A DNA stretch of 32,835 nt, from the NCBI GenBank assembly GCA_022615575.1, contig JAKEGM010000123.1, forward strand, positions 1 to 32,835, in the 5' to 3' direction. The stretch comes from Planctomycetales bacterium. Lineage in GTDB: Bacteria > Planctomycetota > Phycisphaerae > Sedimentisphaerales > Anaerohalosphaeraceae. The notes under the pieces were generated by a model. It had not been told where the DNA came from. It saw only the letters and a program-made list of their open reading frames with translations, and ran no database searches. The translations under genes and the position numbers were made by a program. This document shows positions 960 through 25,362 of the stretch, piece after piece (the first letter of the stretch is position 1; each line of letters begins with the position of its first letter).

Positions 960-2186
960 TTAGACCGTTATCGCCCGCGGGCCGATGGTTACTGTTGTGA
1001 AGCGTTCAAAGGGGTGGCCCCGCAAAAAAGCGAGAATGCCGTTTGTGTTCATGGCTTCAATTTTTTCGCGAATTTCATCAAGTTCGCGGACCCGGCCCAG
1101 CAGGAAATAATCGGAGGAGATTCCCGCTGCGCGGGCGCTGGTCGATTCGCTCTGCATAATCAGCGATGTTTTCAATCCGACCCTGGCCCGCTGCAGTTCA
1201 TCTTCCGTGATGCCGTCTTTAAGCCGGCGGAATTGTTCCAATACCACATCCACCGTCTCCTGTACTTTGTCCGGGGTGGTTCCCGCATAACAGGAAATCC
1301 CCGCAAAATCCCGGAGGGCTTTGTAACTGGCTCCCACGGCATAACACAGGCCGCGTTTTTCACGCACTTCCGTAAAAAGCCGGCTGCTCATGCTGCCCGA
1401 CAGGACAGAAACCGCCGCCGCCACCTCATAAAAATGCGGGGACGATGCGGGGGGGGCTTCCGTCATCAATCCGATATGCACTTGGGCGCCGTCGGTCTGT
1501 ACATGCGTATAGGCCTGCCCGCGCGGCACTGCCGCCGTCGCGGAAAGCCCTTGCGCAGCGGCCGATTCGAACAATACCTCCATCTGTTTGCAGACCGCAT
1601 CGAAATCATACCGGCCGCAAATCGAAAAAATCACGCGTGAAGGGTCAAAAATCGAGCGGGCGATGGCGGCTGTTTTTTCCGCCGTCAGCGCTCCAAGCTC
1701 GTCCGCTTTGCCGACGGCCGGACGTCCGAAAGGATCGGGATAAAACTGTTCGTACAGCAGAATCATGGTCTTCTGGCGGGGGTCGTCATCCAGTCCCGCC
1801 AGATCCGCCAGCGCAAGCTGCCGCGACGGCTCAAACTGATCGGCGGCCAGTTGCGGCCGTAAAATAATATCCGCAAACAACGCCAGCGTCTTCGACAGAT
1901 TGCCCGCCTCCAGGGAGGCGCTGAGCGAAAGATGATGCGATGACAGGGAGGCGTTTCGGTGGATACCCAGCCCATCCAGGGCTTCGACCAGTTGCCGGCT
2001 GCCGCGGTTTCCCGCCCCGCGGAACAGCCAGTCGCAGATTACTTCTCCGGCCCCGCAGCAGCCGTCCGGCAGCAGAGCCGCTCCGGCCGGAAGCAAAAAA
2101 TGAAACGAAACCGAATGCACCTGCTCCATCCGTTCGCCGAGCAGGATCATTCCGTTTTTAAACCGATAGCTGTCCAGTGTCTTCAT
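960..2186 (-). CDS. M16 family peptidase-like protein lacking the HxxEH zinc motif (probable non-catalytic partner subunit)
   Basis: M16-like N-terminus (YRFKNGMILLGERMEQVHSVSFHFLLPAGA) and C-terminal half SSRLFTEVREKRGLCYAVGASY; the zinc-motif position reads GEVICDWLFRG. Start 18 nt upstream of the catalytic M16 gene. Confidence 0.85.
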   Translation of the reverse strand: MKTLDSYRFKNGMILLGERMEQVHSVSFHFLLPAGAALLPDGCCGAGEVICDWLFRGAGNRGSRQLVEALDGLGIHRNASLSSHHLSLSASLEAGNLSKTLALFADIILRPQLAADQFEPSRQLALADLAGLDDDPRQKTMILLYEQFYPDPFGRPAVGKADELGALTAEKTAAIARSIFDPSRVIFSICGRYDFDAVCKQMEVLFESAAAQGLSATAAVPRGQAYTHVQTDGAQVHIGLMTEAPPASSPHFYEVAAAVSVLSGSMSSRLFTEVREKRGLCYAVGASYKALRDFAGISCYAGTTPDKVQETVDVVLEQFRRLKDGITEDELQRARVGLKTSLIMQSESTSARAAGISSDYFLLGRVRELDEIREKIEAMNTNGILAFLRGHPFERFTTVTIGPRAITV

Positions 2187-2222: not shown

Positions 2223-5200
2223 TTATGCCACGGCGGCTTCGGTGTCCGCCTGGGCGTCTTCAAACTGCACGCTGATCTTTTTGCTGACGCCCTGTGTCTG
2301 CATTGTGATGCCGTACAGCACATCGGCAATGCTCATCGTCCGCTTGGAGTGCGTGATGATAACAAACTGCGACTGTTTCTGGAAGTCCTGCACAATCAGG
2401 TTAAACCGTTCATTGTTCGCCTCATCCAGGGCCGCATCCACTTCGTCCAGCACACAGAAGGGCGACGGCTTGGTCTGGAAGACCGCAAACAGCAGGGCAA
2501 TGGCAGTCATGGTTTTTTCGCCGCCGCTCAACAAGCTGATAGTGCGGGTTTCCTTGCCGGGGGGACGGGCCATGATTTCGATGCCGCTTTCCAGCACGTC
2601 GTCCGGCGTTTCCAATAGAATATCCGCCTTTCCGCCGCCAAAGAGCTTGCGGAACAACTGCTGGAAGTTCTGGCGAATCTGTTCAAAGGTTACCGCAAAC
2701 TTATCGCGGCTTTCCTTGTTGATACGCTCAATCAGCTGTTCCAATTGATGCTTGCTTTGATGGAGGTCTTCCACCTGGGCGGTCAGGAATTCATTGCGGT
2801 CTTCAAGGTCCTTCTGCTGGTCAATCGCATCCACATTGACATTGCCCAGTCGCTCAATCTTGCCGCGGAGGTCGGCGATCTGCTCCCTGACCTGCTCCCA
2901 GTCCACATCCGTCTGCTGAAAGTTTTCGTAGGCGTGAGCCAGTTCGATTTGGAGTTCTTCCCGCACGCGCAGCGTCAGGTCTTCATCCTTGACGGTCAGC
3001 TGGCTCAGTTCCAGGTCAAGCTGATGGAGCTGCTGTTCAATCTCGCTCTGGCGTGCCTGATGCACCCGAAGTTCTTCCTGATTCCGATCCCGCTGTACCT
3101 TCATTTGACGGGCTTTGCCGTGCAGTTCGACACTGTGTTTGTGGGCCTGTTCTTTTTCGAGATACAGCTCCGACAAACGCGACTCCGTCGCCAAAATGGT
3201 TCGCTCGGTCTGCACCGTCTGTTCCTCGCAGCCGACCGCTTCCGTGCGGGCGGACTCAATGCCCATGCGCCCGTGAAGAAGCTGGCTCTGGAGCGAGGCA
3301 ATTTGCTGGCGGATCGATGTCTGCCGCTCGTAAATCTGTCCGACCTGCACCTTCAGATTGGTTAGTTCCTCGCTGTGCTGCTGCTGGGCTTGACGCTGTT
3401 CTTCATAGCGGCTGGAAAGCTGCCGGATACGCTCATTCCGCTGGCGGTTAACTTCTTCCAGTTCATCCAATTTCTGGCGCGAAGTATGTTCTTTGCGGAC
3501 CGATTGCTGAATTTCTTCTTCGAGCTGATCGATTTCACCGGCGATCACGGGCTGTTCCTGTTTGAGCCGGCTGATGTTGTCTTCCAGAAGCCGCAGACGG
3601 GACTGGGCGTCCACCCGCTCGGTGTTGGCTTCATAAATACTCGTGCGCAATTCCTGGCAAAGCGTTGTCAGATGTTCCGTTTTATGGCCGGTTTCTTCCA
3701 GCAGAACATCCTTGTCGTGAATGCGTCCGCCGAGTTCTTCCAGTTCGGCCTGCAATTGCCCAAGGCGGCTCTTGCGGGAGATTAACCCCGTCTTTTTGCC
3801 GACCGGCCCCACGTGCAGCAGGCAGCCGCCGGAAAAGAGCTGTCCTGCCGGCGTAACATACCGATAGGCAGCGTCGTCATGCTGCCCGGAAAGCCCGATC
3901 GCCGCCTCTATCGAATCGACAAGGATTACATGCCCCAGCAAACTCCAGACCAGCGGGCCGAAACGGCTGTCGTAACGTACAAATTCGACCAGTCGCCCCA
4001 GAACACCGGGACTCTGCGAAATATCCGCCGCATCGCGAAACGGCGGGATACGATCCATGCAGATGACGCGAATGCGCCCGTCCAGTTTATCGTGCAGGGC
4101 TGTGTCATTCAGAAAGTCGCCGGTGCTGTTAATCAGCAGGGCATCCGTCAGCCCTTCCAGCGCGGCCTCTGCCGCCGCCGCATAAGCCGGCTCGGCGATA
4201 ACCACGTCCGCCACAATGCCCTCAACATACGGACGCTTTTCGGTTTCGGAATTCAAAATCTCAATGAGGGTCTGATTGAGTCCCTGCCGCCGCGCCTCCA
4301 TATCACTGAGTACATTATACTCGCTGGCAACCGCGCTGCGGCGCTCCTTGTCTGCGGCCAATTGCTCCAAAAGACGGCTGCGTGCATCGCCGATGGCCTC
4401 CGTCTCGGCGCGCTTAACGTCCAGGGTGTTCTGCAAGTCCGAAAGAACCCCTTGAACATCCTCCAGTTTCGCCTGCTGCTGGGCTTTTTCCGTCAGCCAC
4501 CGCGCAAGCTGCAATTCGGTTTCTTCCGCTTTTCCCGACAATCGTGTTTTTCGGCCCGCCAGATTGTCGCGGTAGCTGCTCAAACTCTGTATTTCGTTGT
4601 GAAGCTGCGCCGTCCGGCGGACAATGTCGATAATTCCGGATTTTTCATCTTCCAGCTGTGCCTCAAGTTCCGTACAGCGGGTGTTAATCTCGCCGATGGT
4701 CTGTTCGGCCTGACGAAGCTGGCGGGCTTTTGTGTCGGAAAGCTGCTCAACGTCCTGCAGGGTCGTTTGACACGTTCCCAACTGAACCGAAAGCTGGCGG
4801 GTCTGTTCCATCAACTGGGCAATTTGCTCCGTGGCGTTTTTTTTCCGCTCTAGCAGTTCTTTGATTCGGTTATTCAAAAACCCGATACGGTCATGGTGCT
4901 GTTCGATGCGGCTGCGCGCCGAAATCAGCGTTCCGTCCCAGCGGTTGATTTGGCTGTCCGTTTCCATCATCTCGGTGGACAGCTGGCTGACGGCCGCATC
5001 GCAGCGGGCCACTGCGGCGGCTGTTTGGCCGAACTGGTCCTTCCAGCCCGCCAGAGCGGTCTGTTTTTGTTTTCGCTGCGTTACGATGCGGTCGTATTCG
5101 GCCAGCGAAAAATTAACGCGCAGCTCCTTCAGCTGTTCGCTGTATTCCAGATAACTGCGGGCTTTGCCCGCCTGCAGCTTGATGCTGCGGAGCTGCTTTT

Positions 5201-5792
5201 GGACTTCCCCGACAATATCCGCCAGACGCAGCAGGTTTTGCTCCGTGCGTTCCAGTTTCCGCAGGGCCTCTTTCTTATGGGCCTTGTACTTGCTGATGCC
5301 CGCCGCCTCTTCAAAAATGACGCGTCGATCCTGCGTGGAGGCCTTGAGCAACTGGTCAATCTGCCCCTGTTCAATAATCGAATAGGCGCTGACCCCGATA
5401 CCCGTGTCCATAAACAGTTCCCGAATATCCTTCAGGCGGCAGGATTTGCCGTTGATCAAATAATCGCTTTCGCCGCTGCGAAAGAGTCGCCGGGAGATTT
5501 GCAGTTCATCCTGCTCGAGGTTCAGCCCCCGAACATCGGAAAAGCTCAGCGAAACCTCCGCCATGCCGCTGGGCTTGCGGCTGCTGGAACCGCTGAAAAT
5601 CACATCGGCCATTTGACCGCTGCGCAAGCTTTTAGGGCTTTGGTTCCCCAAAACCCACCTAAGTGCATCCACAACATTGCTTTTCCCGCATCCGTTCGGT
5701 CCCACAATGGCCGTGATGGGGTGGCTGATTTTCAGTTCCGTTTTATCAGCAAAGCTCTTAAATCCGTTTATTGTGATCTTCTCAAGTTTCAT
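2223..5792 (-). CDS. smc: Chromosome segregation protein SMC
   Basis: Walker A GPNGCGKSNVVDALRWVLG, long coiled coils, ABC signature LLSGGEK, Walker B FCVLDEVDAALD. Start moved to MKLEKITINGFKSFADK at 5792 (GAGGG upstream). Confidence 0.97.
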   Translation of the reverse strand: MKLEKITINGFKSFADKTELKISHPITAIVGPNGCGKSNVVDALRWVLGNQSPKSLRSGQMADVIFSGSSSRKPSGMAEVSLSFSDVRGLNLEQDELQISRRLFRSGESDYLINGKSCRLKDIRELFMDTGIGVSAYSIIEQGQIDQLLKASTQDRRVIFEEAAGISKYKAHKKEALRKLERTEQNLLRLADIVGEVQKQLRSIKLQAGKARSYLEYSEQLKELRVNFSLAEYDRIVTQRKQKQTALAGWKDQFGQTAAAVARCDAAVSQLSTEMMETDSQINRWDGTLISARSRIEQHHDRIGFLNNRIKELLERKKNATEQIAQLMEQTRQLSVQLGTCQTTLQDVEQLSDTKARQLRQAEQTIGEINTRCTELEAQLEDEKSGIIDIVRRTAQLHNEIQSLSSYRDNLAGRKTRLSGKAEETELQLARWLTEKAQQQAKLEDVQGVLSDLQNTLDVKRAETEAIGDARSRLLEQLAADKERRSAVASEYNVLSDMEARRQGLNQTLIEILNSETEKRPYVEGIVADVVIAEPAYAAAAEAALEGLTDALLINSTGDFLNDTALHDKLDGRIRVICMDRIPPFRDAADISQSPGVLGRLVEFVRYDSRFGPLVWSLLGHVILVDSIEAAIGLSGQHDDAAYRYVTPAGQLFSGGCLLHVGPVGKKTGLISRKSRLGQLQAELEELGGRIHDKDVLLEETGHKTEHLTTLCQELRTSIYEANTERVDAQSRLRLLEDNISRLKQEQPVIAGEIDQLEEEIQQSVRKEHTSRQKLDELEEVNRQRNERIRQLSSRYEEQRQAQQQHSEELTNLKVQVGQIYERQTSIRQQIASLQSQLLHGRMGIESARTEAVGCEEQTVQTERTILATESRLSELYLEKEQAHKHSVELHGKARQMKVQRDRNQEELRVHQARQSEIEQQLHQLDLELSQLTVKDEDLTLRVREELQIELAHAYENFQQTDVDWEQVREQIADLRGKIERLGNVNVDAIDQQKDLEDRNEFLTAQVEDLHQSKHQLEQLIERINKESRDKFAVTFEQIRQNFQQLFRKLFGGGKADILLETPDDVLESGIEIMARPPGKETRTISLLSGGEKTMTAIALLFAVFQTKPSPFCVLDEVDAALDEANNERFNLIVQDFQKQSQFVIITHSKRTMSIADVLYGITMQTQGVSKKISVQFEDAQADTEAAVA

Positions 5793-5837
5793 ACAAACCC
5801 TCAAACCTCGGTTTTAATTGATTAGGCCGTTCCTCTA

Positions 5838-7490
5838 TTATCGGCCGATAACCGGTAAATTCTGCAAAACCTGATCCTTCACGGGCTCCGGCCCTGTAAT
5901 AAATTGTGCCTTAATGGCCTCCTGGCCACACATTTTCCGCAGAATATGGACAATTTCTGCATACGGAACGGCCAATCCCGGACGGGGCGTCGATGAATCC
6001 TTGACGTCCGGCACTTCCCCCAGCGTTTGTATCAAATTTCCCACTTCATAGCCCGCATACAGCGGTCCGACCACTCGCGGCCGAAGGGGATGCTTGCGCG
6101 ACACTGAAATATATTTGTCATTCGCCTGAGCATTGATGGTAATAGCGTCGTTATCTGACTGGACAAAGATATTTTTTTCACAATAAAGCGGAGAGCCAAA
6201 CAGGATAATTCGTGGCGATAACTGCTGATAGACATAAACGGCCTTGGGGCCGCCGCAGGTTACCCTGTCCACCACGAAGGAACCCTTGGCGATAATCGTT
6301 CGAGAAATCTCCGGACTGTTGAGGCGTCCCAGCATTTCGTAGGCGGCCAGTCGGACCGGCGTGTTGGGGTCGTTTAGGGCGTTCAGCAGCATAGGACGGG
6401 CATCGTCGCGTTTTGCGTTTTGACCAACGGTGAGGATGGCTTCAATGCGATAAGGACTGGCGGTATCTAAAATGACCTTTCTCATCACAGGCAGGGGACG
6501 GTTGTCGCCGATATTCAACATACAGCGGGCGGCATAAAATCGAACGTCTGGATCAGGATGGTCCAGCAGTTTTGCCAAATTATCGAGCGCTGGTTTGCCA
6601 ATCCCTTCCAGAGCGATTTCGGCCGATTCTTTGTCCGTTTCTGTCGTAAGCCGCTGAATCAGGGTTTGTGTATATTCATCCTGAATTTGCAGATTGTCCG
6701 CAAGAATAAGGGTTGAGACCATTTTTAGAAACCGCTGTTTTTGCCCGATGTATCGAGCCGGAAAATAGAGGGTGCATTCCGCCGCGGATGTGGGGATCGC
6801 GGTTTTGGGGCCGAATCGTTCATTAATCCGATTGCGAATGGCATTGGCCGCGACGAAATTCGGCGCGTTAAGGATTAGTTTGACAAACCCTTCTTCCGTT
6901 GAACGCCCGCCTCCCAGAATATACCACTCTCGGGTTGAAGCATCGCCGGATGTTTTGGAAAAAACAGGGCCTTCTGCGGTTGCCAGGGTCTTGGAAAACT
7001 GGGTGAACTGTTCGACCCTCGCAAGGCGGCTCATTTCCTTCAGTTCTGCGGTATAAAGGTAGCCGCCGTCCAGCGAGGTGGTTTGGGTGCTTGAGAGAGG
7101 CCGCACAAACACATCAAAGCCGCTTTGAGGGGTTGCCAGCGGTGGTATCACCGCAACGATCTCAACCACGGCGGTATTCTGGCTTTCAATGAGAAGACGC
7201 GGATTAACCGCGCCTGCCTTCGGCACCTGCTTCCAGATATATTTTTCTAATTCTTCGCGAATGCTGGGGGGGCACTCCGCCGAACCCGTTCCCGCAAGAC
7301 CTACAACAAGCCCAATCCCGCGAACGGCTGTCGATTCTGTGGCCTGGTATGTGGCTATCGCGCCAATCGTGCTGCGAGGATCGACATCCTGCTGAGATAA
7401 ATCCGCCTTCGGCGCCGGCTGGCCGCACCCGAAAACAAACAGAACGGGCAGCAAAAACATATACCTGCTGAAATTGAATGACCGAGTCAT
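5838..7490 (-). CDS. FlgI (flagellar P-ring)-like lipoprotein with internal HEAT repeats
   Basis: Lipobox FLLPVLFVFGC; FlgI-like blocks VRGIGLVVGLAGTGS, FDVFVRPLSSTQTTSLDGGYLYTAEL, VKLILNAPNFVAANAIRNRINERFG; then HEAT-like repeats (PALDNLAKLLDHPDPDVRFYAARCML; PMLLNALNDPNTPVRLAAYEMLGRL); C-terminal VPYAEIVHILRKMCGQEAIKAQFI resembles the FlgI C-terminus. ATG at 7490 preceded by AAGGA. Confidence 0.75.
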   Translation of the reverse strand: MTRSFNFSRYMFLLPVLFVFGCGQPAPKADLSQQDVDPRSTIGAIATYQATESTAVRGIGLVVGLAGTGSAECPPSIREELEKYIWKQVPKAGAVNPRLLIESQNTAVVEIVAVIPPLATPQSGFDVFVRPLSSTQTTSLDGGYLYTAELKEMSRLARVEQFTQFSKTLATAEGPVFSKTSGDASTREWYILGGGRSTEEGFVKLILNAPNFVAANAIRNRINERFGPKTAIPTSAAECTLYFPARYIGQKQRFLKMVSTLILADNLQIQDEYTQTLIQRLTTETDKESAEIALEGIGKPALDNLAKLLDHPDPDVRFYAARCMLNIGDNRPLPVMRKVILDTASPYRIEAILTVGQNAKRDDARPMLLNALNDPNTPVRLAAYEMLGRLNSPEISRTIIAKGSFVVDRVTCGGPKAVYVYQQLSPRIILFGSPLYCEKNIFVQSDNDAITINAQANDKYISVSRKHPLRPRVVGPLYAGYEVGNLIQTLGEVPDVKDSSTPRPGLAVPYAEIVHILRKMCGQEAIKAQFITGPEPVKDQVLQNLPVIGR

Positions 7491-7617
7491 CTGTTTATCC
7501 TTTCGATACCGCATGTGTTTACGCGGCATGAATGTACTGCATCCTGTCATGAAAAGTTTGCAGGCAATACGATATGAAAATTCCCATGAAACGTCAAGGA
7601 TATTCTATCCATTGTGA

Positions 7618-7679: not shown

Positions 7680-9215
7680 TTAGCGAACAGGGCGACCTGA
7701 TGGCTGCTGAGGAACATCCGGATAAACAGGTTGATAGCGGTACAGATTGTCCAGTTGCGAGGAGGCCGAATCCGTATTTTTTTGAAGCGTTTCCATCGGC
7801 AGTTCGGCAGGAAGCCCTCCCGGCCAGCGCTTGGCCAGGTTAATGACTCGGCGATATTCCGCAACGAGGTTCCGCAGAGAATCCGCAAGCTGCCTTTGGA
7901 CAATCTCAATGTTTGCCGTCGGTTCAACCGTTGTGATGCTTTCAATGCGGGGGTTTCGCGTCCGTGTGCCCTGGGTACGGTCGTCTCTCGCTGTGACCGG
8001 ATTCTGGTCGGTGTAACGGTTATAATTCAGCGGCGTTCGTTCGCCGCTTCGGCGACGGTACACCTGGCCCCCTCCCTGGATGACTTCGCGGGTCATCGTG
8101 CCGGTACGCAGTTGTTCATCCAACGCGATAAATTGCTCATCGAGCGTTGCGGTCTGTTCCTCGAGCCGTTCAATTGTTGCAAGACCCTGTGCGATATTGC
8201 GGCGGGCGGCCTGATACTGCTTGATAGTGTTGTCAATGCTGCCCATGGTGGTCACCTTGGCCCCGGCTAAACTCAAATCTGACAGGATTTCCGGAACAGA
8301 ACCGGCGATTTTGTCCGCCAATCCCACCGCAACGGCATCTTGCGGCGTCAAATTCAAAACAGCACCCACTATATTCTCCGCGGCGGGTTTCGAAGTCCCT
8401 GCCGAAGCGCCGGACAACCCTTCGGCCAGCGTGCGAACAATCGTCTGGGTCGGCTGACGGTCGCTTTTCTGGATGAATTGACGGCTGCCGTCGATATTGG
8501 TTACTTCGACCACGGAAAGACGCTTGTCCACCAGCGCACGGGCCGGCAGGGCGGGACGATGGTTTTGCTGAGCCAGGGTCGAGACATAGGTGTTGTACGT
8601 GGCCAGCGAATCTGGGCTATAGGTCGCGAGGTATTCTTCAAAGTTCGGTGCGGCGCCGGCAAATCCGGTCGCTGGTCCGACGGCGCCAATTCCGGCGCTG
8701 GGTGCAATATAAACTTTCTGACAGGCCAGGGCCAGTACCGCCGCCGAGGAAAATGCGCCGCCGTACGGTCCGCCGGAAATATGCGCCGCCGTGGGGCAGT
8801 TGGTCGTTTGCGAAAGGGCGGAGGCAATAATCGCCATATAGTCGCCGCGCCCGCCCGGAGAGTCAATCTGGACAATAATCGCCTGGGGGCCGGTGTTGGA
8901 GGCGTCAACAATGGCAGCGGCGATTTTTTCGGAAACGGTCTGTGACAGCAGAACTTCCGGCTGCATAATTTGAATCAGTACCACGCTGTCGCGTCGCCCC
9001 TTTGTGTCAATGGCCACCTCATAATCAGACAGGACAACCGACGTCAGTTTACTCGTTTCGCTGTTAAACACGAGCGTCTTGCCACCTGTGCTTCTCTGGG
9101 TTACAAATCCGGTAAAAACCTCCCCGGTCTCCTTGTGCTTAAATGTATCTGCCCAAACCACAGACGCGCAAACCCATAAAAGAATCCATCCGTACTGTTT
9201 GACACCTGCCTTCAT
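7680..9215 (-). CDS. Secreted/periplasmic ClpP-class (SppA/NfeD-type) serine protease-like protein
   Basis: Signal peptide ILLWVCASVVWA; VQIDSPGGRGDYMAIIASAL, GGPYGGAFSSAAVLALACQKVYIAPSAGIGAVGP and ALVDKR blocks match the crotonase-fold protease family; coiled-coil C-terminal region. GGAGGTG upstream of ATG. Confidence 0.75.
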   Translation of the reverse strand: MKAGVKQYGWILLWVCASVVWADTFKHKETGEVFTGFVTQRSTGGKTLVFNSETSKLTSVVLSDYEVAIDTKGRRDSVVLIQIMQPEVLLSQTVSEKIAAAIVDASNTGPQAIIVQIDSPGGRGDYMAIIASALSQTTNCPTAAHISGGPYGGAFSSAAVLALACQKVYIAPSAGIGAVGPATGFAGAAPNFEEYLATYSPDSLATYNTYVSTLAQQNHRPALPARALVDKRLSVVEVTNIDGSRQFIQKSDRQPTQTIVRTLAEGLSGASAGTSKPAAENIVGAVLNLTPQDAVAVGLADKIAGSVPEILSDLSLAGAKVTTMGSIDNTIKQYQAARRNIAQGLATIERLEEQTATLDEQFIALDEQLRTGTMTREVIQGGGQVYRRRSGERTPLNYNRYTDQNPVTARDDRTQGTRTRNPRIESITTVEPTANIEIVQRQLADSLRNLVAEYRRVINLAKRWPGGLPAELPMETLQKNTDSASSQLDNLYRYQPVYPDVPQQPSGRPVR

Positions 9216-11949: not shown

Positions 11950-12606
11950 TTACCGGCTAACCGGTGCGGGTTGGCGAACCGGCATGGTTTTGCAGATTTT
12001 TTCGGTCATTTTACGGACCTTTTCTTCGGTTTGCGGGGTCAGCAGATACCCGGCCGCACCGCCGGCCGCACCGCCGCCCACTGCCCCAAGGACACGGTCT
12101 TCATCGCCGCTAACAGCTCCGCCGACAATGGCTCCCGCGGCAGCCCCAAGGACGGTCCCCAGCAGTTTGCCGCCGGAGCCCTTGCCCTCGCCCATCCACA
12201 GAATGCTCCCGTCCTCGACATCGACCATCTTGGCCGTGATGAAGATATTATCGCCGAACTTGGGAACATTGATGTACATAATCACCGGAACGTTTAGGAT
12301 TCGGCCTGCCTGGACGGCCCCCTCGCTGCTGGTAATATCCGAGGCCTGGAATTTCTGCTCGTTGAGCAGAATCTGTACCTGGGCGCGTTCGATAGGGGAG
12401 TAGCCCTTCTGAAGAAGTTCCATCATAAAAAAGTCGGCAATTTGGTTTTTCGCCGCTTCGCTGCCGACCGGACCAATGACATCCACGACCGCTATTTTAT
12501 CGATCTTGGAAAAGTCAAAGCTGGTATGATGATAGCTTTTCCCTGACGTACATCCCAAAAATGACACTGCCGCCAACCCCAGTAAAACCGTCTGTAACGT
12601 CTTCAT
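11950..12606 (-). CDS. CsgG/LpoB-like lipoprotein with glycine-zipper segment
   Basis: Lipoprotein signal VLLGLAAVSFLGC; KIAVVDVIGPVGSEAAKNQIADFFMMELLQKGYSPIERAQVQILLNEQKFQ resembles CsgG/LpoB-type domains; glycine zipper GTVLGAAAGAIVGGAVSGDEDRVLGAVGGGAAGGAAGYLL. Confidence 0.65.
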   Translation of the reverse strand: MKTLQTVLLGLAAVSFLGCTSGKSYHHTSFDFSKIDKIAVVDVIGPVGSEAAKNQIADFFMMELLQKGYSPIERAQVQILLNEQKFQASDITSSEGAVQAGRILNVPVIMYINVPKFGDNIFITAKMVDVEDGSILWMGEGKGSGGKLLGTVLGAAAGAIVGGAVSGDEDRVLGAVGGGAAGGAAGYLLTPQTEEKVRKMTEKICKTMPVRQPAPVSR

Positions 12607-18187: not shown

Positions 18188-18303
18188 GCCAAAATTTTAC
18201 AAAAAATCGGTTTTCGATGAATTTTCCGTGTTTTGTGGAAATCTGTATTTGACGAATCTCCTTTTTTTGTTCATAATCATCTACTTATATATTTTTGAGG
18301 ACT

Positions 18304-19908
18304 ATGAAAAACGTGCCCACAGGCCCTGAAAAAAACCGGATTTTCAGCGGTAATGCCAAAATTGACGGCGTTTACCACAACATCGAATGGCTGCTCACCG
18401 CCTTTGCGAGCACGCTGGTTTTTATTATTTTTGTGATGCAGGTCTATCGTATTCCCACCGGCAGCATGGCCGAAACCCTGCGGGGCGCTCATTTTCGGGT
18501 TCGGTGCGGCCAATGCGGATTCCGCTATGACCATGACTTTATCGCCCGGCATTATCCCGTTCCCGGCACGAACCTCCGAATGCCCGACAACTACACCCCC
18601 TCCGCGGTTGTTCCTATCGGCCCGCGGGAAGGGGGACAGATGCGGTCTTCCCGCTGTCCAAGCTGCGGGTATTCAGAACCGGCGCCTATCCGAGCCAGCG
18701 ACGGCCGCTATTATGTCTATAAGAACGGCAAGTCCGTTCCGGCCTATTCGCGGACGGTCTTCAAGGGCGACCAAATCTTTGTTCAAAAATGCATCTACCA
18801 GTTTTTCCAGCCCAGGCGGTGGGATGTCATTGTTTTCAAAAATCCGCTCGACCCCCGCATTAATTACATCAAGCGGTGCGTGGCGCTGCCGGGTGAAACA
18901 TTGCAGATTATCGACGGCGATATTTACATCAACGGCCAAATCCAGCGGAAACCCCGAAATGTGCAGGAAGAGCTTTGGATGACGGTTTATGACAATGACC
19001 ACCCGCCTGCCCGGCCGGAGGAAAAAAGCTTCAACGGCCATACATGGAAGCAGCCGTTTGAAAAAGCGGGAACATCCGCATGGAACCTGTCCGCCGATGG
19101 GCCGACGGTTTTTGAATTGAACAGCCCGGATGCGACCGTTCACCGCATTCAGTACAATGATCGGCTGGGGAATGATTTTCGGGCGACGTATGCCTACGAT
19201 GACCCGGCCAGTTTCCCCTACATGCCGCTGTGCAGCGATGTGATGGCGGAATACTGCCTGTCGATAGAGGATTCGGTTGCGGCAGGCGCCCAGATTCGCA
19301 AATACGGAATTGCTTATGAAGGGTGGATACGGTCCGACGGGACGATGGAGATTGTCCGACTGGCGCCGGCGGAACAGCCGGTTGTGCTGGCAGCGGGGAC
19401 TTGCCGGCCGGAGACGCTGAAACGGATATCCCGCTTCCGGTTTGCGACCCTGGATCACCAGCTTGTGCTGGAATATGGAAACTCCACGTTGGTTCATGAC
19501 CTGGGGACGGGGATTGAGGATGCCGGCACGGGGTATCTGGTTAAGCCGGACGTTCAGCTTCTCGGCGTCGGCAGGGTGCGGCTGACACACATCGGCCTGT
19601 ACAGAGATATTCATTATATCTCCGAAAATATCAGGCGGGCCACGAAAGACAACCCGATGATTCTGCGTAAGGACGAGTATTTTGCCTGCGGCGACAACAG
19701 TCCTTTCAGTTTGGATTCCCGGCTCTGGGACCGGGAGGGCAAGGCCAATCCCGGCCAGGACAGTTACCCGGCCGGGGTGGTCCCGAAGGATTATCTGGTT
19801 GGAAAGGCGTTTTTTGTGCATTGGCCCGGCGGTTATCGGCTGATGAAAGAACCGATTCGATGGATACCCTTTGCGGATGGGATGAAGATTATTTACGGCG
19901 GGGATTAA
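18304..19908 (+). CDS. lepB: Signal peptidase I (large variant, Zn-ribbon insertion), paralog 1
   Basis: TM segment then YRIPTGSMAETL (catalytic Ser), CGQCGF...CPSCGYSE, RRWDVIVFKNPLDPRINYIKRCVALPGE (catalytic Lys region), YFACGDNSPFSLDSRLW (box E). ATG at 18304 preferred over TTG at 18295. Confidence 0.88.
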   Translation: MKNVPTGPEKNRIFSGNAKIDGVYHNIEWLLTAFASTLVFIIFVMQVYRIPTGSMAETLRGAHFRVRCGQCGFRYDHDFIARHYPVPGTNLRMPDNYTPSAVVPIGPREGGQMRSSRCPSCGYSEPAPIRASDGRYYVYKNGKSVPAYSRTVFKGDQIFVQKCIYQFFQPRRWDVIVFKNPLDPRINYIKRCVALPGETLQIIDGDIYINGQIQRKPRNVQEELWMTVYDNDHPPARPEEKSFNGHTWKQPFEKAGTSAWNLSADGPTVFELNSPDATVHRIQYNDRLGNDFRATYAYDDPASFPYMPLCSDVMAEYCLSIEDSVAAGAQIRKYGIAYEGWIRSDGTMEIVRLAPAEQPVVLAAGTCRPETLKRISRFRFATLDHQLVLEYGNSTLVHDLGTGIEDAGTGYLVKPDVQLLGVGRVRLTHIGLYRDIHYISENIRRATKDNPMILRKDEYFACGDNSPFSLDSRLWDREGKANPGQDSYPAGVVPKDYLVGKAFFVHWPGGYRLMKEPIRWIPFADGMKIIYGGD

Positions 19909-19909
19909 A

Positions 19910-19967
19910 ACCACGAAGAACACGAACAACACGGAGATTTTTATTTTAATTTATTTTTCTTCGTGGT
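19910..19967. repeat. Inverted repeat between tandem signal peptidase genes
   Basis: ACCACGAAGAA (19910-19920) / TTCTTCGTGGT (19957-19967), perfect 11-bp arms; interior CACGAACAACACGGAG resembles the arm motif tandemly decayed. Confidence 0.7.
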
Positions 19968-19983
19968 GATAACATTGCACAAG

Positions 19984-21486
19984 ATGGAAGAAACACGACC
20001 ACAACCTTATGAAAGTTTAGCCCATCGGCACCAGCATACCGTGGAGGGCGTTGTTACGCTGCTGGATTGGCTGCTGGTGGCGTTTATCCTGGCGCTGCTG
20101 TTTCAGGGGTTTGCCATGCAGGCGTTTCAGATTCCCACCGGCAGCATGGCCGAAACGCTGCGAGGCGCGCATTATCATCTGCGGTGCCTTCGATGCGGCC
20201 ACGCCTTTGATGTGGGCAGCGATTTGATGGAGTTTGGCCGACCCTGGTGCGGCAACTGCGATTATTACCAGCCGCCTTATGCCGCCGGCGATTTGAAGAA
20301 CGGCGACCGCATCTTTGTTTTGAAGTCCATCTATCAATTTTATGAGCCGAAACGGTGGGATGTCGTGGTTTTTAAAAATCCCACCAACCCCCGGGATAAT
20401 TACATCAAGCGTCTGATCGGGCTTCCCAACGAAACCGTGCAACTCATACGCGGCGATGTGTTTATCGACGGGAAAATCGCCCGGAAACCCGCCAATGTAC
20501 AGAACGAACTGTGGATACCTATTTTTCTGCGGGATTACCAGCCGCTTGCGGCGGCGGACCTTTCGAATAACTCCGCCGGGCAGGAACAAAACACGCCGGA
20601 CGGTCCCTCAGCGATGCCCTTTCAAAACGAGCAGGATTCGGGCTGGGAGCTGAAGGATGCCGTTTTTTCGCTGCACGATGCTTCAGGGCGGCGGCACACC
20701 CTGTCGTATGTTTCGGCCAATCCGCATGATTTTCAGGCGATGTGCAGCTACAATGACAGTTCGGACAATTTCGGCAAACCGGTTGTCAGCGACCTGATGA
20801 TCAATTTTTTTGCCCGGCCCGGCGGCACAGAGGGGTATATCGGGGCGTCGCTTGAAAAATACGGCGTTCTTTATTCGGCCCGGGTTGAATTCGGCGGGTC
20901 GCTGGTTCTGACCAGGACTGTCAACGGGGTTACGACCGACCTGCGGCTGCCGATGCTGATTGGGCGTGCAGAGCAGGGGCGTTTTGAGAAATTTGAATTT
21001 GCCTGCGTGGACCAGCTGCTGGTGCTGCGCTGGGGACAAAAGCGCTTGGCGTATGACCTTTCCGGCGATGCAGGGTTTGCGCGGCAGGAGTCCTCTGACG
21101 AAAAGCCGCCACGGGTGCAGATTTTTGCCGCCGGACCAGCCCAAATCCGGCATGTCGGGCTGTTTCGGGATATTTTTTATATGGGCAAAGAGGGGTATTC
21201 TTTGCGGGCCACCGACGAAACCCCGTTCACCCTCAAGGACGACCAGTTCTTTGTTTGCGGCGACAACAGCAACAACAGCCTGGACGGACGGCTTTGGCCG
21301 ACAAAGGGCATCGGCAACAACGGGCAAACCTACGATGAGGGAGTTGTACCGCGCGACTACATGATGGGAAAAGCGGTTATGGTCTATTGGTCGCAGGCCT
21401 TCAGACCCCTGCCGAATTTTCCGCCGATGATACCCAATTGGGGCACAATCAAGGTCATTTACGGCGGCGGCGAACGGGAATATTGA
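19984..21486 (+). CDS. lepB: Signal peptidase I (large variant, Zn-ribbon insertion), paralog 2
   Basis: FQIPTGSMAETLRGAHYHLRCLRCGHAF...WCGNCDYY; KRWDVVVFKNPTNPRDNYIKRLIGLPNETVQLIRGDVFIDG; FFVCGDNSNNSLDGRLW. ATG at 19984 chosen over GTG at 19963, which lies in the inverted repeat. Confidence 0.88.
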   Translation: MEETRPQPYESLAHRHQHTVEGVVTLLDWLLVAFILALLFQGFAMQAFQIPTGSMAETLRGAHYHLRCLRCGHAFDVGSDLMEFGRPWCGNCDYYQPPYAAGDLKNGDRIFVLKSIYQFYEPKRWDVVVFKNPTNPRDNYIKRLIGLPNETVQLIRGDVFIDGKIARKPANVQNELWIPIFLRDYQPLAAADLSNNSAGQEQNTPDGPSAMPFQNEQDSGWELKDAVFSLHDASGRRHTLSYVSANPHDFQAMCSYNDSSDNFGKPVVSDLMINFFARPGGTEGYIGASLEKYGVLYSARVEFGGSLVLTRTVNGVTTDLRLPMLIGRAEQGRFEKFEFACVDQLLVLRWGQKRLAYDLSGDAGFARQESSDEKPPRVQIFAAGPAQIRHVGLFRDIFYMGKEGYSLRATDETPFTLKDDQFFVCGDNSNNSLDGRLWPTKGIGNNGQTYDEGVVPRDYMMGKAVMVYWSQAFRPLPNFPPMIPNWGTIKVIYGGGEREY

Positions 21487-21684
21487 CGGACCAAGCGGAG
21501 TGACAATTTTCGATTGACGAAGAGGGTGGAATTTTGCTGTTTTATGCCGAAGCGAGGCGCTTCGTCCACAATGCCGGATTCTGCGATTTTTTGCACATTT
21601 TTTCGGGTTGTGAAACCCCCTTCAAAAACCCGCATAATTACTCTGAAAATGCCGAATTTTGGCTTATAAATTAAGAAGGATTCG

Positions 21685-21713
21685 TTGACAATTCTTACGG
21701 GGGCGGGTACACT
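21685..21713 (+). promoter_or_regulatory. Sigma70-type promoter upstream of gyrA
   Basis: TTGACA (21685-21690), 17-nt spacer, TACACT (21708-21713), about 75 nt upstream of the gyrA ATG. Confidence 0.65.
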
Positions 21714-21788
21714 ATTCCTTTCTATAAATACGGGGTTTAGAGAGTTTGCAGCCCCGGTCAATTTTGGAGTCAAAAGGACAGAAATTTT

Positions 21789-24350
21789 ATGGACGAAAAC
21801 ACAGAAGAAATCGTTCAGCCGGAACATTTTGAAGATATGCAGATTCTTGATGAACTCAAGAATTCGTACCTCAATTACGCCATGAGTGTGATTGTCGCCC
21901 GCGCCCTGCCGGATGTACGGGACGGGCTTAAACCGTCCCAGCGTCGCATTCTGGTGGCGATGAACGACCTGGGCCTTGGGCCTCGTTCCAAACACCGCAA
22001 ATGCGCCAAAATCGTCGGCGATACCAGCGGCAATTACCACCCGCATGGTGACCAGGCCACCTACGGCACGCTGGTGCGTATGGGGCAGGAATGGAACATG
22101 CGCGTTCAGTTGGTGGACCCGCAGGGCAATTTCGGCAGTATCGACGCCGACCCGCCCGCGGCCATGCGTTATACCGAAGCCCGGATGACCCAGGCGGCCA
22201 CGGACATGCTGGAAGACCTGAAACTGGACACCGTGGATTTTGTGCCCAACTATGACGAGACCCGCCATGAACCCACGGTGCTGCCCGCCAAGTTTCCCAA
22301 CCTGCTGGTCAACGGCGCCAGCGGGATTGCGGTGGGCATGGCGACGAACATTGCGCCGCATAATGCGGGGGAGGTGTGCGATGCGCTGCTGCTGATGATT
22401 GAAGACCCGGACTGCGGCTTTAAGGACATCCTGGAACGGCTGCCGGGGCCGGATTTTCCGACGGGCGGAGTAATTTGCGGGCGAAAAGGCATTATGGACG
22501 CCTATGTAACCGGCCGGGGACACCTGCGGGTGCGGTGCAAAGCCCATGTGGAAACCAACAAACGCGGCAAAGAAAGCATCATTATTACCGAAATTCCCTA
22601 TATGGTCGTCAAGACCACCATTGTCGCCAAGATTGCCGACTGCGTCCACGACGGCCAGATTGACGAAATCGCCGATATTCGCGACGAATCCGACCGCAAG
22701 GGGCTGCGGGTTGTGGTGGAGTTGAAAAAGGATGCCGACAGCAATGTGGTCATGAACAAGCTGTACCGCTTTACGCCGCTGCAAACGACGTTTGCGGTCA
22801 ACAATGTGGCCCTGGTCAATAACCGCCCGGAAACGCTCAATATCAAGCAGATGCTCCGGCTGTACATTAACCATCGCCTGACCGTGATTCGGCGGCGCAC
22901 ACGGCATCTGCTTCGGCGGTTCCGCAACCGGGCGCATATCCTGGAAGGCCTGATTCTGGCCGTCAGCGATATCGACGAAATCATCGCCCTGATTAAATCG
23001 TCGCCGGATGGCCCGACTGCCAAGGTCAACCTGATGAAAAAACCGCTGCGTCTGACGGAAAGTGAAATTCTTCGCAAACTGCTGCCGGCGGAATTTGTCG
23101 AACTCCGCACGAAAAACGACCACTTTCTGTCCGGGCCGCAGGCGGACGCGATTTTGACGATGCAACTTCAGCGGCTGACGGGGCTGGAAATCGAAAAACT
23201 GGCCAAGGAATACGCCGAAGTGGCGGAAAAAATCGCCGGGTTTGAGGCGCTGCTGGCCAGCCGGGACCTGCAGCTGGATGTCATTCGGGAAGACCTGCTG
23301 GAAATACGGGAAAAATACAAAAGCGCCCGCCGCACCCAGATTTTGACGGACGAAGCGGATACGCTGGAAATGGAAGACCTCATCGCCGAAGAGGAAACGC
23401 TGGTGACGGTTACGCACGGCGGCTACATCAAACGCATGGAAATTGATGCCTACCGCAAACAGGGGCGCGGCGGCAAGGGCGTCATCGGCTCGGACACCAA
23501 GGAAGGGGACTTCCTGGAGCATTTGTTTGTGGCCTCGACGCACGATACGCTGATGTTCTTTACGAGCCGGGGCATCTGTCACTGGCTGAAGGTCTATAAT
23601 GTGCCGGCCATGTCCCGCCAAAGCAAGGGACGCGCCATTATCAACCTGCTGCAATTGGACAAGGATGAAAAGATTACCTCGATCATCAATGTCCGCGAAT
23701 TCGACGATCAGCGTCAGCTTGTGATGGCGACACAGAACGGCACGGTGAAAAAGACGGCGCTGAGCGCCTACGGCAACCCCCGCAGCAGCGGCGTGATTGC
23801 CCTCAAACTCGATGAGGGCGATGTTCTGATTGGTGCGGCGATCACCTCCGGCAAGAATGACATTATTCTCGGCACACGCGACGGGATGGCCATTCGTTTT
23901 CACGAGTCCGCCGTTCGTTCGATGGGGCGCGTCAGCCACGGCGTGCGCGGCATTACGCTGCGGGAAGACGACCGTGTCGTCGGGATGGTGATTGCGGAGG
24001 AAGGGGCCTTCCTGCTGACGGTCTGCGAGAACGGCTACGGCAAGCGGACGGAATTGTCGGACTACCGTGCCCAGGGACGCGGCGGCATCGGCCTGATTAA
24101 TATCAAGACGACCGAACGGAACGGCAAGGTGGTTGCCATCAAGCCGGTTCACGACGATGACGAGCTGATGATGATTACCGCCAACGGGATGATTGTCCGT
24201 ACGGGGCTGGACGAGGTGCGGGCCATTGGCCGAAACACCGCCGGCGTGCGTATGATTTCGCTGAAGGAGGGCGATAAACTCGTTGCGGCCGAACGGCTGA
24301 TTGTTGAAGAAGACGATACAGGTGCCGAGGGCGAGCCGAACCCCCAATAG
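21789..24350 (+). CDS. gyrA: DNA gyrase subunit A
   Basis: [39 protein letters not shown] catalytic Tyr; GyrA box QGRGGKG; C-terminal beta-pinwheel repeats. Confidence 0.97.
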
Positions 24351-24360
24351 CGGATGCAAT

Positions 24361-25362
24361 GTGGCAAAAAAAACGGACAAACAGAAATCGCCGGCGGGAT
24401 TTACAGTTATCTATGGGGCCGATCCGTTTTTAGTCAGCCGGGAATGCCAATGCCTGCTGGATGCGCTGCTCGACCCGCAGGAACGGGACATGGCGCTGTA
24501 TGAGCCCAAGGCGGACGAGGCTCGGATGAGCGACGTTCTGGAGGAACTTGCGACCCTTCCGTTTCTGGCTTCCAGGCGGGTCGTGCTGATTAAAGGTGCC
24601 GAACCCTTTATCAAGGAAAACCTTGAATCTCTGGAAAAATACATCGATACCCCCAGCCCGTCCGGCCTGTTGATTCTGACGGCAACCTCTTGGGACAAAC
24701 GCCTGCGGCTTCATAAGAAACTGCAGGCGGCAGGCGGGCTAATTGAAGTGGCGGACATAAAGTCCTATCAGATGCCGGCGTATGTGACGGCTTATGCCCA
24801 GCAGACCCACGGCATCCGGCTGGACGGCTCGTGCAGTCGTTTTCTTGTCGAACTGGCAGGCGATGACCCGGGCCGCTTATGCCGGGAAATGGACAAGTTG
24901 GCGGTGTATGTCGCTCCGGCGAAAACGGTTTCCATGCAGGATATTGAGGCGTTGATTGGTCAAAACCGCTTGTTTAATGCGTTTGATGTAATCGACGCCA
25001 TAACCGCGGAACGCACGGGCGATGCCATTACGCGGCTTCGGGCGATGTTCGGGGCAGACCGGGATACGGAATACACGGTGGTAGGGGCGTTCGGATTCCA
25101 TTTCCGGCGGTTGTTTCGCGCCAAGGCGATGATCGAACAGGGCGCATCCCCGCAGCAGGCCGCGGCAAAGGCAGGGGTTCGCTTCAAAACCGAGGAATTT
25201 CTTCGGCAGGCCGCTCGGCTTTCGCTGCCGCAGATTGGCCGCATACTGGCGGAGTTGGGCCGGATTGATATCGGCCTCAAAACAGGTCAGACCACCGCGT
25301 CCGCCGCGATGGAACGGCTGATTCTGAAGATTTTTTCAGTGCAGAAAAATGCCTCTTTTTAG
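24361..25362 (+). CDS. holA: DNA polymerase III subunit delta
   Basis: FTVIYGADPFLVSRECQCLLDAL, LATLPFLASRRVVLIKGAEPFIKE, GRLCREMDKLAVYV, IGQNRLFNAFDVIDAI. GTG at 24361 preferred; the ORF-track start overlaps gyrA. Confidence 0.88.
   Translation: MAKKTDKQKSPAGFTVIYGADPFLVSRECQCLLDALLDPQERDMALYEPKADEARMSDVLEELATLPFLASRRVVLIKGAEPFIKENLESLEKYIDTPSPSGLLILTATSWDKRLRLHKKLQAAGGLIEVADIKSYQMPAYVTAYAQQTHGIRLDGSCSRFLVELAGDDPGRLCREMDKLAVYVAPAKTVSMQDIEALIGQNRLFNAFDVIDAITAERTGDAITRLRAMFGADRDTEYTVVGAFGFHFRRLFRAKAMIEQGASPQQAAAKAGVRFKTEEFLRQAARLSLPQIGRILAELGRIDIGLKTGQTTASAAMERLILKIFSVQKNASF

Follow-up and report, generated by a model that had tools for sequence, protein, structure and literature searches.

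Why should a gene related to that of the flagellar P-ring protein FlgI lie beside smc, in a stretch of DNA with no flagellar genes in view? FlgI is generally taken to be a purely flagellar protein. The window – the whole stretch of 32,835 nucleotides that was analysed – belongs to the draft genome of a Planctomycetales bacterium, and a reading made from its letters without database searches (the sequence-only reading) had proposed a FlgI-derived, ring-forming lipoprotein with a protein-binding insertion, possibly part of an undescribed envelope machine.

The gene occupies positions 5838–7490 on the minus strand, exactly where that reading had placed it, and encodes 550 amino acids. The open reading frame could reach 7550, but the ATG at 7490 carries a ribosome-binding site (AAAGGA, 7498–7503, minus strand); the stop codon ends at 5838. 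All parts of the protein are given here by residue and by minus-strand position. Residues 1–22 form a lipoprotein signal peptide with the lipobox FVFG-C (7425–7490), recognised from the sequence and from relatives. Residues 41–266 correspond to the IRU and OR domains of FlgI (6693–7370), as found by Pfam FlgI, profile-profile comparison, hmmsearch and Foldseek. Behind them lies an insertion of eight helices, or four HEAT repeats (residues 267–390; 6321–6692), identified by HEAT_2, by the helices of the structural model and by matches to alphaRep and HEAT proteins in the PDB. A beta domain (residues 391–480; 6051–6320), confidently modelled and without recognised homologue, replaces most of the IRL domain of FlgI, and residues 481–534 (5889–6050) match the C-terminal helix-helix-strand tail of FlgI in profile-profile comparison.

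Both the FlgI-like N-terminal block and the HEAT-like block described earlier are recovered by Pfam, at 1.3e-18 for FlgI (67.5 bits, cut-off 25.3) and 5.4e-17 for HEAT_2, which is also above its cut-off. Since FlgI was found in 37/37 diverse relatives and HEAT_2 in 33 of them, the combination is not a product of chance. Residues 41–266 match FlgI at 99.9% (E 4e-35) in profile-profile comparison, hmmsearch to Salmonella FlgI (7bgl) gives 2.4e-27, and the curated FlgI cut-off of NCBIfam is not reached (56.5 versus 300 bits). In the profile searches these residues align with Salmonella FlgI to approximately mature residue 237; in the Salmonella structure the border from OR to IRL falls between residues 230 and 231 (PMC8298488). 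The HEAT block thus sits at the OR/IRL junction, and the description of an interrupted FlgI fold is apt. Instead of the complete IRL domain that follows OR in FlgI, there is the inserted block, and only the tail matches.

The C-terminus had also been called FlgI-like, and for the last ~45 residues this holds: the profile score is 33, against a maximum of 14–16 among shuffled sequences (0/60 shuffles as good), with E-values from 3e-6 to 3e-5. It does not extend to the beta domain, for which we found neither a PDB fold match nor a profile match to FlgI. A predicted structure devoid of the FlgI fold would have counted against the earlier proposal. The AlphaFold model, built from 59 relatives (pLDDT 91.2, pTM 0.86), has that fold: the four best Foldseek matches in the PDB are FlgI chains (E 2e-13 to 8e-13, ~231–235 aligned columns), and behind these rank HEAT-type alphaReps. 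The alignment spans only part of FlgI and rigid superposition is poor (rmsd ~10 Å), so the placement of domains may differ from that in FlgI.

Signal peptide, lipobox and acceptor cysteine, by which bacterial lipoproteins are defined, are all present in the sequence, and processing is predicted. The lipobox is no peculiarity of the window protein, where the cysteine is residue 22: of the 123 family members whose corresponding region could be identified, 116 have one. The residue following the cysteine (+2) is Asp in only 9/116, which by the Asp+2 rule points to anchoring of most members in the outer membrane, although the rule comes from E. coli and need not apply to these bacteria. No lipobox cysteine was found in seven members (L057, L102, L115, L120, L121, L167 and L175); lipidation is therefore not essential everywhere, and most of the seven probably represent one lineage that lost it.

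The distribution of the family is independent of flagella. Using a family profile at a threshold of E <= 1e-40, we found the family in 147 of 150 sampled Phycisphaerae genomes, one copy each (one of them split across two contigs), and in 124 of the 125 good genomes of the sample. The flagellar export component FlhA was found in 112/150. The only three genomes to lack the family are FlhA-positive, which means that all 38 FlhA-less genomes carry it. Three of these FlhA-less carriers are single-contig genomes (G018, G063 and G069). ChapFlgA was detected in 106/150 genomes and is absent from most that lack FlhA (the match in G116 is weak). In the source draft genome, which is 89.6% complete, we found no FlhA, ChapFlgA or ordinary FlgI, a result that takes the earlier remark about missing flagellar neighbours beyond the window, for which it is true; two relatives of the same genus possess all three.

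Beyond Phycisphaerae, relatives of full length are present in four families (f47, f88, f97 and f68), with f54 a probable fifth; f47 and f88 probably belong to Planctomycetia. In the other outside families sampled, any match was just as long as an ordinary FlgI, and some had no match at all. The matches listed by one cross-phylum scan were all Planctomycetota, save one record titled Alphaproteobacteria, which is probably mislabelled, and one titled only 'bacterium'.

In flagellate genomes the family comes on top of ordinary FlgI. An ordinary FlgI (~360–400 residues) is present beside it in about 104 Phycisphaerae genomes, and in a tree of FlgI domains the HEAT family forms a clade (support 1.0) apart from that of ordinary FlgI (0.91). 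Homologues sitting consistently in flgH/flgI operons and replacing canonical FlgI had been named as the pattern that would contradict repurposing; what we see is coexistence, and no conserved flagellar neighbour at the loci surveyed. At the level of residues, G19, G30, D85 and G100 are invariant in the relatives, and these core residues are kept in ordinary FlgI too. Among the 37 relatives the rod-contact residue Lys-95 is Thr in 25, Lys-63 is variable, and positions 18, 46, 50 and 104, which belong to the hydrophobic FlgH pockets of FlgI, are mostly polar. Ordinary FlgI of Phycisphaerae has Lys at 63 in 19/50 and at 95 in 22/50.

The remaining case for a variant or accessory of the planctomycete P ring is the FlgI homology itself, together with the fact that most host genomes are flagellate by the FlhA count. 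Against it stand the FlhA-less carriers, the coexistence with ordinary FlgI in a separate clade, the absence of FlgA from most genomes where flagella are missing, the unconserved rod and FlgH contacts and the lack of a conserved flagellar neighbour. We rejected this identity and consider it very improbable. That the protein is a FlgI paralogue repurposed outside the flagellum, as the sequence-only reading had it, is strongly supported.

Two further observations concern flagellar genes in the class. Three genomes of family f10 (G005, G015 and G025) have FlhA, and neither ordinary FlgI nor ChapFlgA was found in them; their flagella may lack a P ring, or the FlhA may belong to some other export system. 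Genomes of family f14 (for example G029, G070, G076 and G117) each contain two FlhA paralogues.

A second source of information is the neighbourhood. Directly downstream lies smc (2223–5792, minus strand; Pfam SMC_N 1.1e-70, hinge 7.5e-14), likely the second gene of an operon. Its likely ATG at 5792 is 45 nt past the stop of the FlgI-HEAT gene (the listed open reading frame starts at a TTG at 5804), and a scan of the gap for terminator-like sites came up empty, although such scans are weak evidence. The same arrangement, with smc directly downstream on the same strand, was seen at 25 of 41 loci and at 19 of 20 further loci; among 80 named loci, a set which overlaps the others and in which 74 have enough downstream sequence, it was seen at 41. 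Combined by family, smc is directly downstream at 44/61 loci in 17 of 23 families, including 9/9 loci in f47; it was not seen in the other six. No other neighbour is shared as deeply and genes upstream are not conserved. The spread of smc adjacency over more than one class-level group, which no other neighbour matches, suggests selection for co-expression.

Of the two neighbours singled out earlier, then, smc has proved deeply conserved, whereas the secreted ClpP/NfeD1b-like protease immediately upstream (7680–9215, minus strand) is lineage-specific: among the loci surveyed it was seen only in the window's own family, and it falls outside the conserved unit. At two loci (L055 and L189) two related copies of this protease stand side by side. 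Downstream of smc are two M16 peptidases (1–942 and 960–2186, minus strand), kept in the window's family and part of f4, and the same gene run includes a lipoprotein with a glycine zipper and a weak match to CsgG (11950–12606, minus strand). Elsewhere the window encodes, in tandem, two long proteins that resemble signal peptidase I (Peptidase_S26; 537 and 507 aa; 18295–19908 and 19963–21486, plus strand) and two overlapping long open reading frames on opposite strands (21459–24380, minus; 21789–24350, plus), either of which may be the gene; the 973 aa minus-strand frame has no Pfam match.

A HEAT protein encoded next to smc raises the possibility of a bacterial HAWK-like subunit of the SMC complex. 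The repeats and the conserved adjacency favor it. Against it, nearly all members carry an export signal, and the complex has its usual partners: ScpA was found in all 61 genomes and ScpB in 60 of them, the source genome included. Such a subunit would be expected in the cytoplasm, in place of the KITE subunit ScpB, which fits neither the lipobox signal nor the presence of ScpB. We rejected this candidate too, and give it next to no credence.

Taken together, the data point to a membrane-anchored, undescribed envelope component. With moderate confidence we propose a periplasmic scaffold, mostly anchored in the outer membrane, with a partner-binding HEAT arm and expression tied to smc. A FlgI paralogue would have left the flagellum, keeping the IRU and OR domains and the C-terminal tail. 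The mostly outer-membrane lipobox signal and the character of the OR domain, which in FlgI is similar to OmpA-like domains that bind peptidoglycan and to the N3 domain of secretins (PMC8298488), lead us to place it as an outer-membrane-anchored scaffold, possibly oligomeric, in the peptidoglycan zone; contact with peptidoglycan is an inference whose sole basis is this resemblance. The HEAT arm, which fits the protein-binding insertion postulated earlier, may hold a partner protein in the periplasm. Production together with SMC would let supply follow the chromosome and growth cycle. The role would be a housekeeping one in the envelope; the protein would not touch SMC directly, as the inner membrane separates the two. 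A more ambitious version, in which a lipid-anchored, FlgI-derived ring with its HEAT arm is made with SMC as an envelope machine that coordinates envelope growth or constriction with segregation, strikes us as unlikely.

Two alternatives differ from the proposed scaffold chiefly in how much of the P-ring architecture they retain. The protein might build a P-ring-like ring around some non-flagellar structure – a pilus, a secretion conduit or a division collar – with the HEAT arm as decoration. The IRU domain, the OR domain with its secretin N3-like fold and the C-terminal tail are indeed kept, and the core glycines are invariant; but most of IRL, a contributor to the contact between P-ring subunits, has given way to an unrelated-looking beta domain, and both the FlgA chaperone and the rod-facing lysines are gone. 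We regard such a ring as possible but doubtful. The same loss of IRL and of the rod and FlgH contacts would suit a monomeric lipoprotein tether or chaperone, in which the FlgI fold is a mere spacer, the HEAT arm captures substrates and the smc adjacency is old, meaningless gene order, as the unconserved upstream genes and the six families without that adjacency might suggest. This we think rather unlikely, for the adjacency extends beyond one class-level group as that of no other neighbour does, and so speaks for selection on co-expression.

We found no description of the family in the literature searched, which left out most subscription papers, and no NCBIfam model that names it; the text of the P. 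limnophila essential-gene paper makes no mention of FlgI or SMC. Here, then, is a FlgI paralogue present as a single copy almost throughout a class, retained where flagella have been lost and tied to smc across class-level groups. It offers a ready target for studying how planctomycetes connect their envelope and chromosome cycles, and a warning against annotating such genes as 'flagellar P-ring protein FlgI'. An SMC-coupled envelope machine, if true, would concern a phylum with unusual cell division.

How does the family compare with known systems? The crateriform pits of planctomycetes are likewise envelope structures, located where the outer and inner membranes meet (PMC5394234), but in those Phycisphaerae that have been examined they are reported to be lacking or were not seen (PMC7783415), while in this class the gene is nearly universal; a role as pit component is accordingly disfavored. 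With SMC-ScpAB condensin and the eukaryotic HAWK subunits it shares a HEAT protein encoded beside smc, and differs in that the protein is exported while ScpA and ScpB are both present. HEAT-repeat proteins (HEAT_2, PF13646; alphaRep; the phycobilin lyases CpcE/F) have in common with it the repeats, four in number here, and a probable binding surface, the difference being that its repeats are an insertion within the FlgI scaffold of an exported lipoprotein. The closest relative remains FlgI (PF02119; Salmonella 7CLR/7BGL), which assembles a 26-fold ring. Common to both are the IRU and OR domains, the invariant core glycines, Asp-85, the C-terminal helix-helix-strand tail and export to the periplasm; the FlgI-HEAT protein departs from it in the lipobox, the HEAT insertion at the OR/IRL junction, the replacement of most of IRL, the loss of rod and FlgH contact residues and of any link to flagellar genes or FlgA, and its presence in genomes without flagella.
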